Positions 139 to 6,340 of a DNA stretch of 64,000 nucleotides are shown in pieces. The stretch's first letter is position 1. Every line of letters begins with the position of its first letter. The position numbers and the translations under genes are program-made. This DNA is from Zymoseptoria tritici IPO323. Taxonomy: Eukaryota; Ascomycota; Dothideomycetes; Mycosphaerellales; Mycosphaerellaceae. The notes under the pieces are model-generated. The model was not told the DNA's origin, did not search any database, and was given only the letters and a program-made list of their open reading frames with translations. The stretch spans positions 1 through 64,000 of the forward strand of contig NC_018199.1 of NCBI RefSeq assembly GCF_000219625.1, given 5' to 3'.

Positions 139-180
139 CCCTCACCCTCACCGCCGCGCGCTTACGCGCGCGCCTAACCC
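139..180. repeat. Telomere junction: CCCTCA variants and GC-only hairpin
   Basis: Two variant hexamers CCCTCA (139-150) end the telomere. They are followed at about 152-173 by alternating GC runs on both sides of a short TTAC centre, able to fold as a GC-rich hairpin. This is the outer boundary of the CpA/TpG-poor block, whose inner boundary is also a hairpin (6457-6505). Confidence 0.8.
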
Positions 181-240
181 TACGACTTTAACCTACTCTA
201 AACTCTACTACTAATACGTCTTAACCCTAACTCGTACTTT

Positions 241-361
241 TACCTATTTAACGGGTTACGCTTCGCGTCGATTTTATTAAATCTATTAACCCTAATACTA
301 TTACCTATTTAACGGGTTACGCTTTACGTCGACTTAATTAAACCTATTAACCGGGTTAGCG
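241..361. repeat. Two tandem 61-bp direct repeats
   Basis: A 22-base start (TACCTATTTAACGGGTTACG plus CT) recurs at 241 and 302, an exact 61-bp period. The rest of each copy is recognisable with point differences (TTCGCGTCG against TTTACGTCG). Telomere-like CCTAA words are scattered around it. No gene seen. Confidence 0.75.
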
Positions 362-748
362 CTACGCGGATTCGGGTTCTACCCTATCTACTTCTATATC
401 TTTATTCTATTTACTAATATTCTTATTATATAGGTTACGCTTTATATTTACCTTAGTTAATTAATTTATCTCTATATTATAGCTCTAAGTAGTCTAAGAA
501 GAATAAGAAATAGTATATACTCTATATTATATCTATACTCTAGAACTACTAGCTAAAGTATATTATATATATAAGCTATACTTAAAGTATTAATCTATTA
601 GGTTCTCGGCTTTTATATTATATATAATAGAGCCCTAATATATAATACTCTATACTTCTAGGCGCCTATACTATATACTATATATTTAGAGACCTTTATA
701 GTATATAGTTCTAAGCTACTATAGTATATCTAGATACTAGTATACTCT

Positions 749-927
749 AAACCGCTATACTCTATATTCTATACTCTATACTTTAGGACCGCTATGCTAT
801 ATACTTAGAAACCGCTATATCTTATATCTCTAGACTACTATACTATATACTTAGAAACCGCTATATCTTATATCTCTAGACCGCTATATCTTATATTCTA
901 AAACCGCTATACTATATACTTAGAAAT
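749..927. repeat. Degenerate short tandem repeats (ACCGCTATA type)
   Basis: The words ACCGCTATA, CTTATATCTCTAGA and ATATACTTAGAAA recur about every 20-40 bases. The array lacks CA and has a single TG. It lies upstream of the 1145-residue gene and has no coding potential. Confidence 0.65.
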
Positions 928-949
928 AGAATAGACTATATAAACCTTT

Positions 950-1091
950 AGTTTTCGTCTTACTCTTCTCTTCCTTTTCTTAACCTTCTCTCTTATATTA
1001 TCTACTCTATTACTACCTTTTATACTCTTTACTACTACTACCTTATATACTCTTTACTACTACTACCTCTTATACTCTTTATTACTACTAG
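950..1091 (+). promoter_or_regulatory. Pyrimidine-rich leader with 25-bp repeats before the OrsD-like gene
   Basis: The 140 bases before the ATG at 1092 are almost pure C/T/A on the coding strand. A 25-bp unit beginning TATACTCTTT is repeated three times (starting at 1021, 1046 and 1071), the last ending right at the start codon. CT-rich tracts just upstream of the start are typical of fungal promoters and 5' leaders. The assignment as promoter/leader is inference from position and composition. Confidence 0.5.
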
Positions 1092-4000
1092 ATGTCTTCT
1101 ACTACTAGTAGTATCTATTATAAGAATATAGAGAGAATTAGGCCTCTTACTATAGAAGAATTTAATAAACTACTAGAGGATAATAGGCCTTATACTAAGG
1201 AGACCTTTAAAGCTATTACTCCTAGTAGTATAGAGTCCTTAGAAGGGTTACCGCTAGACTATAATCCGGATCTAAAGCTATTAATTTGCTCGGAGTGTTC
1301 TACTACTCTTAATAAGGATATTAATAATATAGTAAAACATTTAAAGGTAAGTATAGTCTAGAGAGTATATTAGAAAGCCTACTAACTATATATAATAGGG
1401 ACATTCGAATAAGAATAATAAGGAGACTAGAGAATACTATAACTCTACCTCTATTCTAGATTTAATTAAGAGCTTTATAGAGGGTAAAGATATACTTATT
1501 AAAGACGAAAAGAATTCTAAGGAGGTACTTAGTAATATAAGTTATAATACCTACTACTATCCTAACTTAGAGCTAAACTTAGACGGATATAAATGCCGAC
1601 TTTGTCTCTATCTTAATCCGAGCGCTAAAGAAGTACGAAGACATCTAAATAAAAAACATAACTATAAAAGTACGACTACTCTTAACCCTAACGTTCTAAG
1701 AGAGGTTCCTATTATATCTATTAAAGGATTTAAGGATAATCTAAAGTATAGGTTTATACCTAAGTTTATTAAAGAGAATAGTAATACCTATACTAGTAGT
1801 ATATCTAATACGGATCTAAATCTAGATACGTATAAAGACGTCTTTAGTAGTATAAAGAAGGATACACTTTCTAACGCGCCTAAAGAATCTAATATAAATA
1901 GAGAGGAAGAGTTTTTTAATAGAAGTACCTACTACTTCCGATATCTAGAGGATAAGGACCTAGAACTACTTCTAAATACGATAGATCCTAATATCTTTCT
2001 TAAGAATAGGCTACTAGCCTTTATCTATTATACAACTATAAATCTAGGCTTAGAAACCTTTAGTTCTATCGAAGATCTCTCTATAAATACTAGAAAGGCT
2101 CTTAATAACTATAACCCGGGAAATAATAATCTAGAAGTAAAAGCCTTTAAAGAGCTCGATATAGCTACGAGAAAGTCTTACCTTAAGCCTATCGCTACCT
2201 TCTTCGTCTATCTCTATACTATATATCGAGAGCCGGAAGCCTACTACTCTAAGCCTACTATAGAGTCTTCTCTTAGTAGTCTTTTATTTAAAGTATCTAC
2301 TATTAGTACGTATTTAATAGAGGATAGTAATAGAGCTAAAGAAGATCTAAAGAGAGTTTTATTAGAGACTCTAGATTATCTTCTTACTCTAGGGATAGAT
2401 ATAGTATTCTACGAGAATAGTAGTTTTAATAATCCTTTAATAACCTATTTGATTATAGCGAGCTTAGATCCGGCTAAGATCCTAGCTCTAGAAGATAAGA
2501 ATACTATTATATTTAGAAAGACGACTTCGGTACAATCTCTATTATCTAAGTTAATCTACTCTAGCCGCCTATTTACTTTAAAGTATTTAGTACTTCTAAG
2601 TACTACTACTACTAAAGTAGATAACGCCTTAAAGTTTATCGAGTCTAGATTAACTATAAATGCTAGTAACTACTTTACGGAGTACTATAGCCTTCGGATT
2701 AAGCTAAAGTATTATAATTATAATAAGATTAGTAGCTATAAGCCTATAGACGATATAGATCCGGATACTTTAGCTATAGATAATATTAAAATTAATATAA
2801 ATACGCTACGGACCTTATTTATAAAATCCTTAGAAGATCTAGAGGATCTATTCTTTAAGGACATTATACTATTTAATAAGGAGGAGGAAAATATAATAGA
2901 CCTAGATCTAAGTAAAGTTCTCGATCGAAAAGATAATAATACGCCTTTAGAGGATCTAACGAGCTCTAAGTACCTAGTAAAATATAAGGATATTCTTATT
3001 AAGAAGTTTATAAATAAAGACCTCTTACTAGATCCTACTCTAGGTAGTAAGGCGAATATTAAAGACGGTATTCTAAGCTACTTTAAAAAGATCTATAACT
3101 TCTTAGTATCTTTAGCGCTAAATATCTACTTACTATCGAGTAGTCCCTTAAGAGGGAAAGCGGTTATTCTACTTAAGTTTCGAAATACTAGTCTAGGATC
3201 CCTACGAGATATCTTCCTCGATAAGAGTAATAATTTAATAGCTTTAGATACGAGTAACCTCGATAAGAACCGGGACTCTACTACCCTAAATACTAATACT
3301 ATTCGGTTTCTACCTATACGCATAACGAGGATAATAGTCTACTATATTACTTTTATTATTCCGCTAATAGAGTATCTACGGATTAACTATCTAGACGTTA
3401 CAACCCTAGAAACAAAGCTTTTCTTTAAGCTTTATAATAAGAATATTACGAGCCTTACTCTAAGTAAAGCTCTAAAGGATATAACTAAAAAGTACTTTAA
3501 TAAAGGAATTGGTATTAAAGAGTATAGACATTTAATAACCTATATAATTAAAGAGCGTATACTAGTAGAGAGGCCGGAGCTATTAAGCCCTCGATCGAAC
3601 AAAACGGCTATAAAATTAAGTAATCGAGAACAATCTAATATCGAGGATATACTAGCGGGACATTCTACTAAAGTAGCGAATCTAAACTACGCTAGAGAAA
3701 CAAACTACTTTAGTAATAAGACTAGAGATACTACGAACCGAAGCCTAGCTTTCTCTAAGCTATACTTTAACTACTTTAATTTACTAGAGGATAAATCGAT
3801 AAGAGAGATCTTAAAAGATAAAGTAGAGTATATCTCTCGAGTAAAAAGCTATAAGACGACTAGTAATAAAGAGGATAGTACTACCTCTTCTTCGATATCT
3901 TCTATCGACTCTAGTAGTCTTAACCTAAGTAATAATTCGGATAATAAAACGCTTACTATTCCTAAGGTACTCGAGTCCTCTAAAGATAATCTAAGCAACC

Positions 4001-4581
4001 CTAGCTCGGATTCTAATATATCTTTTACCTTTAAGAATACGTTTAATAGTCCTAAAACCCTTTTAACGGAAGAAAATACTAGAAAGAATCGACTTACTCC
4101 TAAAGCTCTTCGTCTACTTAATAATAAAGTCTTTAGCCCTTCTAAAGAGACTATTATCGAGGATTATATAACGACTATCGATCCGGAAAGAGAGAATCTT
4201 ATAGAACCTATATCTAACTCTAAAGAAAAGAGTAATACTAAGTCTTTACGGCCGTCTAGTAATTCTAGCCCTACCTCTAATAATTCTATTAAATCTAAGA
4301 ATTCTTCTCGAGTAAAGAACCCTAAGAATCCTATAAAGACTCTAGAGTTAAGATCGAATCTAGTAGTACCTAGTAGCTCTAAACCCCTAGTACCGAAGCT
4401 TTCTACTAAGCGGTCTTTTAGTAATAGAAATAGTTCTAATAGTAGTAAATCGAAATCTTCTAATAATAATCTAGACGTAGAAGAGAATATAGAAGAGGCT
4501 AAAGAGATAGTTAAAAAGAAAGGAGGTAGACCGAAGAAGATTAAGAGCGGTAAAAAAGGCGGACGGCCTAAAAAGGGATAA
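1092..4581 (+). CDS. OrsD/telomere-linked-helicase-like zinc-finger protein with tyrosine-recombinase-like domain and AT-hooks
   Basis: Spliced gene: exon 1 1092-1346, intron 1347-1398, exon 2 1399-4581, phase 0, 1145 residues, no internal stop. I checked every codon from 1399 to 2451, where the frame joins the long downstream ORF. Zinc finger 1 is C66-x2-C69-x13-H83-x3-H87, spanning the intron; zinc finger 2 is C151-x2-C154-x12-H167-x4-H172. Both resemble the paired fingers of OrsD-domain proteins and of fungal telomere-linked RecQ helicases. The middle also resembles the non-helicase part of those proteins, from memory of the family. It holds R670 in PLRG, K708, K792-x-x-R795-H796, H840 in AGHS and Y849 nine residues after H840, the order and final spacing of tyrosine recombinases. 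A Ser/Asn-rich tail (about 904-1120) ends in two GGRPKK AT-hooks. No helicase domain is present. Likely nuclear and DNA-binding. Function as a recombinase is inference. Confidence 0.85.
1347..1398 (+). other. Spliceosomal intron of the OrsD-like gene
   Basis: Starts GTAAGT, has a perfect TACTAAC branch site at 1380-1386 and ends TAG at 1398; 52 nt, a normal fungal size. Removal joins codon 85 to GGA in phase 0 and brings H83 and H87 of zinc finger 1 together, a strong internal check. The 3' end uses TAG rather than the commoner CAG, in keeping with the absence of CpA in the region. Confidence 0.92.
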
Positions 4582-4719
4582 AGCTTTTAAATTCTAATAT
4601 AAGGGATTAAGTATAGAAGGTTAGGCGTTTAGGGAACGGTATCTAGACTACTTTATATAGCTATCTTATAGGATTTTATTCTATTTCTCTACTATAGCTT
4701 TTCTTAAAGTACTATTTTT

Positions 4720-6340
4720 AATATAGTTTTATATTCTTTCTAAGAGTTTTCTAGGACTAAGCTATAGTTTTCTAGGCTTTCTTAGTTAGGTAAGAGTATA
4801 AGAAAACTATAACTTAGTCTATTAAAACTTCTAGGCTCTTATAAAAACCCTAAGTCTAATACTTTTAATACTAGGTCTATCTTAGGTTTTCTATTCTTCC
4901 TTATAGTTTTCTAGTACTAGCTAATAGTTTTCTAGCCTTTCTAGAGTAGTAATAAAGATAGGAAAACTACTACTTAGATAATAGAAACTCTAGAGATCTA
5001 ATAAAAACCTAAGGTCCGACTTTCTTAGTACTAGGTCTATCTTAGTTTTTAATTTCTTTATAGAGTTTTTAGGAACTATTTAATAGTTTTCTAGGCTTTA
5101 TTAGTCGGCTAGAATAATAGGAAAACTATTACTTAGTCTATAGAAACTCTAGGGCTTCTTAGAAAACTTAGAGTTTAGCTATAGTAATAATTTTTTTAGA
5201 CTTTAAGAGACTTTAGGTTTTCTATTTCTTTATAGAGTTTCTAAGAACTAGGTAATAGTTTTATAGGCTTTCTTATTTAGCCTAAATAGTAGGAAAACTA
5301 TTATATAAGCTATAGAAACTCTAGGGCTTCTATTAAAACCTCGAGTCCGACTTTCTTAGTACTAAGTAGAACCTAGGTTTTCTATTTATCTATAGAGTTT
5401 TTTAAGCTTAAGTAATAGTTTTCTAAGGTTCTTAATATATAAAAGGATATAAGAAAACTATTAGTTAGTCTATTAAAACTTCCTAAGCCTAACTAAAACT
5501 TCGCGTCTAGATTTCCTAGTACTATATCTACCTTAGGTTTTCTATTTCTTCCTCGGGTTTTCTAAGACTAAGTAGTAGTTTTCTAAGCTTCCTAATCTAT
5601 TAAAGAGTAGAAGAAAACTACTAGCTAGTCTTTAGAAACTCTAGAGCTTTTACTAAAACTTCGAGTCTAGATTTCTTAGTACTAGATATACCTTTAGTTT
5701 TCTATTCTTTCCTAGAGTTTTCTAGGACTAACTTATAGTTTTCTAGGCTTTCTAGGTTAGTATAGAATACCCTAAAACTATTATTTAGTCTATAGAAACC
5801 CTAGGGCTTAAAGTAAAACTCTAGGCCCGTCGTTTATATTTTATTTCGGATATTAAGTTTTCTATTCTTTTATAGAGTTTTCTAGGACTAGCTAATAGTT
5901 TTCTAAGCTTTCTTATTTACGTAAGAATCTACTAAAACTATACACTAGTCTATAGAAACCTCCTAGATTAATATAAAACTCTAAGTCCGTCTTTACTAAG
6001 AAATTTCTTAGGACTAAAACTTAGGGTTTTATAAACTTTAGTAGAGTTTATATAGACTAGTTAGAGGTTTTCTAAGCTTCTTTATCTATTTAAGAATCTA
6101 GGAAAACTATACCCTAAGCCCTTAAAACTCTAGGAAGAATATTAAAACCTTAAGTCTCTATATATACTAGTACTTTAGGTTTTCTAGCGAGTACTAGAGT
6201 TTTCTACGACTAGCTAGTAGTTTTCTCTTACTCTTTAGAGCCTCTTATATCTTATAAAACCTACTCTATATACCTAGAAACTTAAGAGCCTCTAATAAAA
6301 CCTCGGAACCCTTATTTTCTAGTACTAAAATAGGGTATTT
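4720..6340. repeat. Satellite: about ten ~160-bp units, each internally palindromic
   Basis: A landmark of the type TTAGGTTTTCTATT recurs near 4886, 5046, 5215, 5375, 5535, 5695, 5855, 6025, 6174 and 6335, giving a period of about 160 bp with indels. Within each unit TAGTTTTCT is followed about 30-40 bases later by AGAAAACTA, and TAGAGTTT by AAACTCTA. An outer GGTTTT pairs with AAAACC. The arms are nested, so each unit can fold into one long imperfect hairpin or cruciform. No coding potential is seen. The segment 4582-4719 just after the gene is AT-rich and probably holds its 3' UTR. Confidence 0.8.

Follow-up and report, generated by a model that had tools for sequence, protein, structure and literature searches.

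One end of a chromosome of Zymoseptoria tritici IPO323 carries an intact 1145-codon gene that has been stripped of nearly every CA and TG, the dinucleotides targeted by RIP, and whose full-length copies at other chromosome ends are open and under purifying selection. RIP is usually regarded as lethal to repeated genes, and the hardening of this multi-copy subtelomeric gene against RIP by selection is well supported by the results below. Taken as a whole, the gene is probably a copy of a subtelomeric family that has been hardened by RIP and selection together, is related to the N-terminal half of a helicase and is spreading between chromosome ends. The window, the whole stretch of 64,000 nucleotides analysed (C20:1-64000), is presumably one end of accessory chromosome 20 and was searched against the 39,686,251-base assembly of 21 contigs (given as C with a number, their left and right ends as L and R).

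The two exons, when joined, encode 1145 codons and a stop with no internal stop (Table 1), so that the gene model proposed in a sequence-only reading of this DNA is borne out. Because exon 2 has no stop in its own frame vs 40–197 in each of the five others, its frame is not a product of chance; an assembly error hiding a broken frame, which that reading had allowed for, is unlikely, as seven copies agree on the open frame. The predicted intron follows the splice-site consensus GTAAGT...TACTAAC...TAG, and its length, GTAAGT start and TAG end are identical in all seven full-length copies. The protein contains 4 Cys, 6 His, 2 Gln, a single Met and no Trp, exactly the tally claimed earlier. A genome search with the 5′ flank gave 11 matches, and 8 of these fall no farther than 1.2 kb from the end of a contig.

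Table 1. Features at the telomeric end of the window (positions are those of the window).
Feature	Positions	Strand	Basis or remark
Telomeric repeats, CCCTAA, 25.3 copies, contig end	1..152	+	Repeat analysis
RIP-saturated 5′ flank, common to other chromosome ends	180..1091	+	CA 0, TG 1
Exon 1, codons 1-85, start codon and ligands C66, C69, H83	1092..1346	+	Kept in 7/7 full-length copies
C2H2 finger 1 (C66, C69, H83, H87), across the intron	1287..1404	+	Residue positions, layout by eye
Predicted intron, 52 bp, GTAAGT...TACTAAC...TAG, without CA or TG	1347..1398	+	
Exon 2, codons 86-1145 and TAA	1399..4581	+	
C2H2 finger 2 (C151, C154, H167, H172)	1594..1659	+	Sub-threshold C2H2 and OrsD matches
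Tyrosine-recombinase-like region: R670, K708 (uncertain), K792-x-x-R795-H796, G-H840-S, Y849	3076..3750	+	Motif by eye, alignment A1
C-terminal tail, two GRPKK AT-hook-like motifs	4525..4578	+	
RIP-saturated tandem array, unit ~160 bp, downstream of the gene, almost without CA/TG	4727..5995	+	

The coding sequence (CDS) holds 17 CA (observed/expected, o/e, 0.081) and 8 TG (o/e 0.049), 25 in total where base composition predicts about 370, close to the two dozen against hundreds counted by eye before. Resampling synonymous codons with the protein held fixed gave on average 319 CA/TG under uniform codon choice and 360 under the codon use of four open reading frames (ORFs) of the window, and the depletion also holds against the control suggested earlier, a shuffle of the CDS's own codons (mean 140, minimum 119 in 1000 shuffles). 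Silent targets are nearly exhausted: the window copy retains 1.0% of them (5 silent CA/TG, compared with 480 TA that would be silent if un-RIPped), whereas the four mechanical ORFs from this window retain 68–84%. The other 20 of the 25 targets are non-silent, 2 of them stop-making, compared with 64 stop-making targets in 1419 codons of the four window ORFs (about 52 when scaled). The depletion ends at about 6.5 kb, and beyond 7 kb the window is normal (CA and TG o/e 1.10 and 1.08). Across the eight gene copies examined, CA/TG o/e is 0.02–0.08, and the family thus shows the CpA/TpG depletion and TpA excess of RIP, in repeated DNA.

At least seven full-length intact copies, six of them distinct, occur in the genome (C20L, which is the window copy, C20R, C4L, C3L, C12L, C17L and C17R), the six haplotypes being spread over five contigs. 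The start codon lies 1.0–1.1 kb from the contig end in six of the seven and 8.5 kb inside the contig, behind less depleted DNA, in C4L; all seven are oriented away from the telomere. Two truncated copies, C5L and C13R, have neither the start codon nor the fingers and are still open (888 and 896 codons), so that none of the nine long copies has a stop, and the stop-broken frames that are RIP's usual outcome are absent from them. More distant relatives are found inside C12 (61%) and at C6R (N-terminal part only), while C18L and the C13R end have 5′-flank matches with no adjoining CDS match among the matches listed. The copies end in one of two protein tails; GRPKK motifs are present in both types and, once exact and once as GRPRK, in the C12 internal relative. 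Exchange between copies is likely, because the 5′ flanks diverge far less than silent sites of the CDS (0.1% where dS is 2% for C20L-C3L, 0.8% where dS is 9% for C20L-C17L); the copies are mosaic, and their sites are not independent. C17L and C17R are identical over the 1000 codons compared, and the presence of identical copies at both ends of one contig (L014 left, L015 right) is a sign of recent end-to-end exchange. On C5 (L016, ~6170-6190), telomeric repeats run into a copy in mid-gene with other DNA outside them, a junction that looks like a broken end healed via telomere addition.

Selection and the placement of targets were examined over codons 1–1000 of the seven full-length copies, with the tails, C5L and C13R set aside. 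All 20 non-identical pairs gave dN/dS of 0.08–0.16, the 21st pair being identical, with the proviso that the copies are paralogues with signs of exchange and their sites are not fully independent. Of 158 two-state sites, 100 are silent and 58 non-silent, where 47 silent and 111 non-silent or stop changes would be expected under a neutral null that places the same base changes at random; the highest silent count in 2000 random sets was 66. Among more distant relatives, the C12 internal one and the window copy give 0.13 over 230 codons at dS 1.38 and 0.23 over 461 codons; the C6R fragment, which is without a start codon and has stops after the homologous part, gives a higher ratio, 0.37. The 5′ flank was dropped as a neutral yardstick, being less diverged than silent CDS sites. 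The sequence-only reading had expected dN/dS below 1 among copies from other chromosome ends, and a ratio near 1 is rejected; its proposal that the gene survived saturating RIP under strong selection is supported by these ratios and by the exhaustion of silent targets alongside the retention of non-silent ones.

The six haplotypes carry CA/TG at 31 sites, 14 fixed and 17 polymorphic. All 14 fixed sites are non-silent, namely the start codon, Cys 66, 69, 151 and 154, His 83, 87, 167, 172, 796 and 840, Gln 464 and 830 (both CAA), and the codon junction (T|G) that sets Ala507, whereas 9 of the 17 polymorphic sites are silent and 6 of the 8 non-silent ones are Thr codons (Fisher p 0.0013 for the split between fixed non-silent and polymorphic silent). 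H796 and H840 are fixed even though one RIP hit suffices to replace either. In the C6R fragment (193 aligned codons, 61% identity, dS 0.76), 10 CA/TG precede the first stop, 8 at the eight zinc ligands and 2 near the end of the homologous part. The C12 internal relative has 7 in 496 codons: both recombinase-like His and the aligned Gln account for three, Thr codons for three more and a Ser codon for the last. The truncated copies have kept their Gln and His codons, with 1 of 9 CA/TG silent in C5L and 7 of 19 in C13R; open frames can outlast function, or recent RIP has been weak. The earlier observation that 11 of the remaining targets lie at the start codon, Cys and His is correct as a count and partly circular as evidence, because every Cys or His codon contains TG or CA; in the window copy alone, 20 of the 25 targets are non-silent and 5 silent, and 14 of the 25 lie outside the start codon, Cys and His. 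What carries weight is that Cys and His survive nowhere else, that the fixed sites are all non-silent and that no silent site is fixed.

Such a pattern probably arose as copies spread among chromosome ends and, because of that spread, became RIP targets repeatedly. RIP would then have converted nearly every silent CpA/TpG to TpA, while selection weeded out copies hit at essential codons; with about 1% of silent targets and few non-silent ones left in the CDS, a further RIP cycle would rarely break the gene. RIP as the mutagen is suggested by its footprint, and the copies may have spread via subtelomeric recombination or through the protein itself, which would act on DNA. 'RIP-proof', as the gene had been called on the argument that it cannot be killed this way, is too strong for a gene with 20 non-silent targets; 'RIP-hardened' fits.

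The family protein would combine two OrsD-like C2H2 fingers, a tyrosine-recombinase-like domain and AT-hook-like tails, as which we take the GRPKK motifs. Exon 2 has no DEAD or Helicase_C domain in a Pfam search, and its only profile matches, C2H2 and OrsD (PF12013), are both sub-threshold (OrsD 17.9 bits for a 100-residue piece and 13.6 for exon 2, below the cut-off of 26.6). Helicase relatives in the same genome score 27.4 bits for OrsD, with neighbouring matches in frame, and the two-finger layout looks similar by eye in a helicase relative and in an OrsD protein encoded on C10. The C10 gene, whose OrsD match is far above the cut-off, has a locus o/e of 1.2 and 43 stop-making targets in a 609-codon frame; its match (C10:660754-661062, L030), of normal composition, could serve as an un-RIPped reference for the two fingers.

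Tyrosine recombinases have the catalytic order R, K, H/K-x-x-R, H, Y. The residues R670, R795-H796, G-H840-S and Y849 appear by eye to follow this order, with Lys and not His at 792, and in the alignment R670, R795, H840 and Y849 are kept in all seven full-length copies; a recombinase function is suggested by these motifs read by eye. Searches of Pfam, NCBIfam and PHROGs with the recombinase-like region at E ≤10 (HMMER filters drop most matches >0.1) detected no YR family, PF00589 and DUF3435 included, and a profile search of the PDB with alignment A1 found no relevant match. PF00589 has no match anywhere in the genome; DUF3435, presumably the family of Starship captains, has four, including C14:257637-259051 and C7:96047-96984, with stops in two of the four. 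Two of these four loci, compared by tblastn, gave E 0.95 at best. A single-sequence AlphaFold2 model of residues 603–889 reached a pLDDT of 36 and is worthless as a fold. At E ≤10 the Crypton domain GCR1_C does not appear among the Pfam hits for exon 2, and no relatives outside this genome appeared in the viral contig and other-genome contig collections searched.

Relatives do exist at the C8 and C13 ends, where intact, CA/TG-depleted helicase genes with frames of 1644 and 1696 codons are 99% identical; the window gene aligns at 27–30% with the region that precedes the helicase in both. It shares with telomere-linked RecQ-type helicase genes of fungi a homologous N-terminal region and a subtelomeric place, but not the DEAD and Helicase_C domains, which the C8 gene has. 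R-H and G-H-S of the window gene are aligned with R-K and N-R-S in the C8 gene, whose recombinase-like domain may for that reason be inactive. Frames with finger, recombinase-like and helicase parts and no stop lie at L021:3305-8239 (C8:2437804-2442735) and C13:904-5835.

Two functions are conceivable for the protein, each compatible with hardening by RIP and selection. It could be a selfish telomere element whose active tyrosine recombinase moves its own gene among telomere-adjacent sites, so that selection acts via transposition. This tentative account, somewhat short of likely, draws on the conservation of the four putative catalytic residues, on the fixation of H796 and H840 despite their exposure to single hits, and on the distribution of the six haplotypes over five contigs, with all seven copies in one orientation and six of them at a similar distance from the end; against it, neither profile nor fold backs the recombinase, 792 is Lys, and ectopic recombination explains the places of the copies equally well. 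Alternatively, and more doubtfully, the gene could encode a host-serving telomere factor, a domesticated helicase relative or partner that aids chromosome ends and whose copies were spread by ectopic recombination. Such a role is favoured by the gene's place beside telomeres and by homology with the N-terminal portion of helicase genes that are intact at two further ends, and two fingers with AT-hook-like tails would suit DNA binding, yet among the matches listed full-length copies occupy few of the contig ends (7 of 42), and seven redundant copies should relax selection, whereas no non-identical pair exceeds a dN/dS of 0.16. The fullest version of our reading, a mobile telomere-adjacent recombinase gene hardened by RIP's own attack and still spreading among ends, with the C8 and C13 helicases as a second, less advanced case, falls just short of an even prospect; RIP would have left targets almost only at codons the gene cannot do without.

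Accounts that dispense with RIP or with selection fare far worse. A GC content of 32% and an extreme residue bias might suggest that the gene is foreign and AT-rich or that its codon preference avoids CA and TG, but the noncoding parts of the block (180-1091, the intron and 4582-6250), downstream array included, are equally purged (CA 1, TG 1, TA 514) and neither CG (o/e 1.2) nor CC (o/e 1.1) is depleted in the window copy, which makes this very improbable. Equally improbable is a dead repeat that is without stops merely for want of CAA, CAG and TGG codons: it would suit the open frames of truncated C5L and C13R, for which it may hold, and is contradicted for the full-length copies by their silent-biased divergence and because none of the six haplotypes has lost the start codon or either CAA codon.

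Hardening by RIP and selection also accords with the fate of other repeats. Stops interrupt 14 of the 17 genome matches to PF00145, and the five of these 14 relics that were analysed have CA/TG o/e of 0.55–0.99; the two matched parts of a helicase-family relic on C16 (o/e 0.40–0.72) contain 9 and 12 stops. Survival of the window family cannot be put down to light RIP, because these less RIPped relics of the same genome carry stops, and among the repeated genes compared the more RIPped are the intact ones. The C8 helicase gene, with o/e of 0.19 and 0.15 and 2.3% of silent targets left, and its C13 counterpart are perhaps a second case of survival under RIP.

The family has very probably been met before. 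A low-GC telomere-associated gene of Mycosphaerella graminicola was described in 2014 and named RecQ helicase for its similarity to a Schizosaccharomyces japonicus helicase (PMC4522978); its 3,480-bp CDS, of 34.7% GC, was first seen on chromosome 12, and nine chromosomes were found to carry copies (7 full-length, 6 truncated). The copies reported here, likewise at least seven full-length and one on C12, very probably belong to it, although the window gene has no helicase domain to match the label and only the related C8 gene does. The available text of that report gives copy number and GC, and does not mention selection or the loss of CA/TG from an intact frame; it also records a published genome of 39.7 Mb in 21 telomere-to-telomere chromosomes and a CpA to TpA bias in 70 of 94 repeat families of the species. 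Functional Dim2, with a locus on chromosome 6 and subtelomeric copies, promotes C to T at CpA and was recently inactivated in IPO323 and many isolates, according to the text seen of PMC8016269, and its recent loss would fit the few silent CA/TG now present in single copies.

Selection against RIP has milder precedents, as far as the accessible parts of the reports tell. In Pseudocercospora fijiensis the original, RIP-exposed histone H3 gene is proposed to be kept by purifying selection (PMC6710886), but there one original survives among dead extra copies, whereas every full-length copy of the window family is intact with hardly a target left. The FoTeR telomeric retrotransposons of Fusarium oxysporum resemble the window family in that they are repeats at telomeres whose intact copies evolve under purifying selection (mean dN/dS 0.344 and 0.303), and they show a RIP signal in 5 of 7 isolates (PMC12857005); unlike here, RIP is tied to decay, with no target exhaustion in an intact frame in the text available. 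Cryptons, fungal YR elements (PMC3212892), are a possible analogue of the catalytic region, CryptonF having GCR1_C where the window gene has OrsD-like fingers, AT-hook-like tails and no profile match. A stretch of 750 bp without CpA has been noted upstream of a RIPped pseudogene (PMC1805685, in the part seen). No description of an intact gene purged of RIP targets was found in a search that left out most subscription papers and all bioRxiv preprints, and covered others in part; the earlier statement that no description was known thus stands for the RIP pattern within this literature and fails for the gene family.

Among the repeated genes compared, those most strongly RIPped are the intact ones, an indication that a multi-copy gene under selection can come through saturating RIP. 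A gene should not, then, be dismissed as a relic on the strength of low CA/TG content or RIP indices alone, and the family now listed as RecQ helicase should be renamed. The residual CA/TG amount to a natural mutational scan, in which targets kept under recurrent attack point to essential residues.
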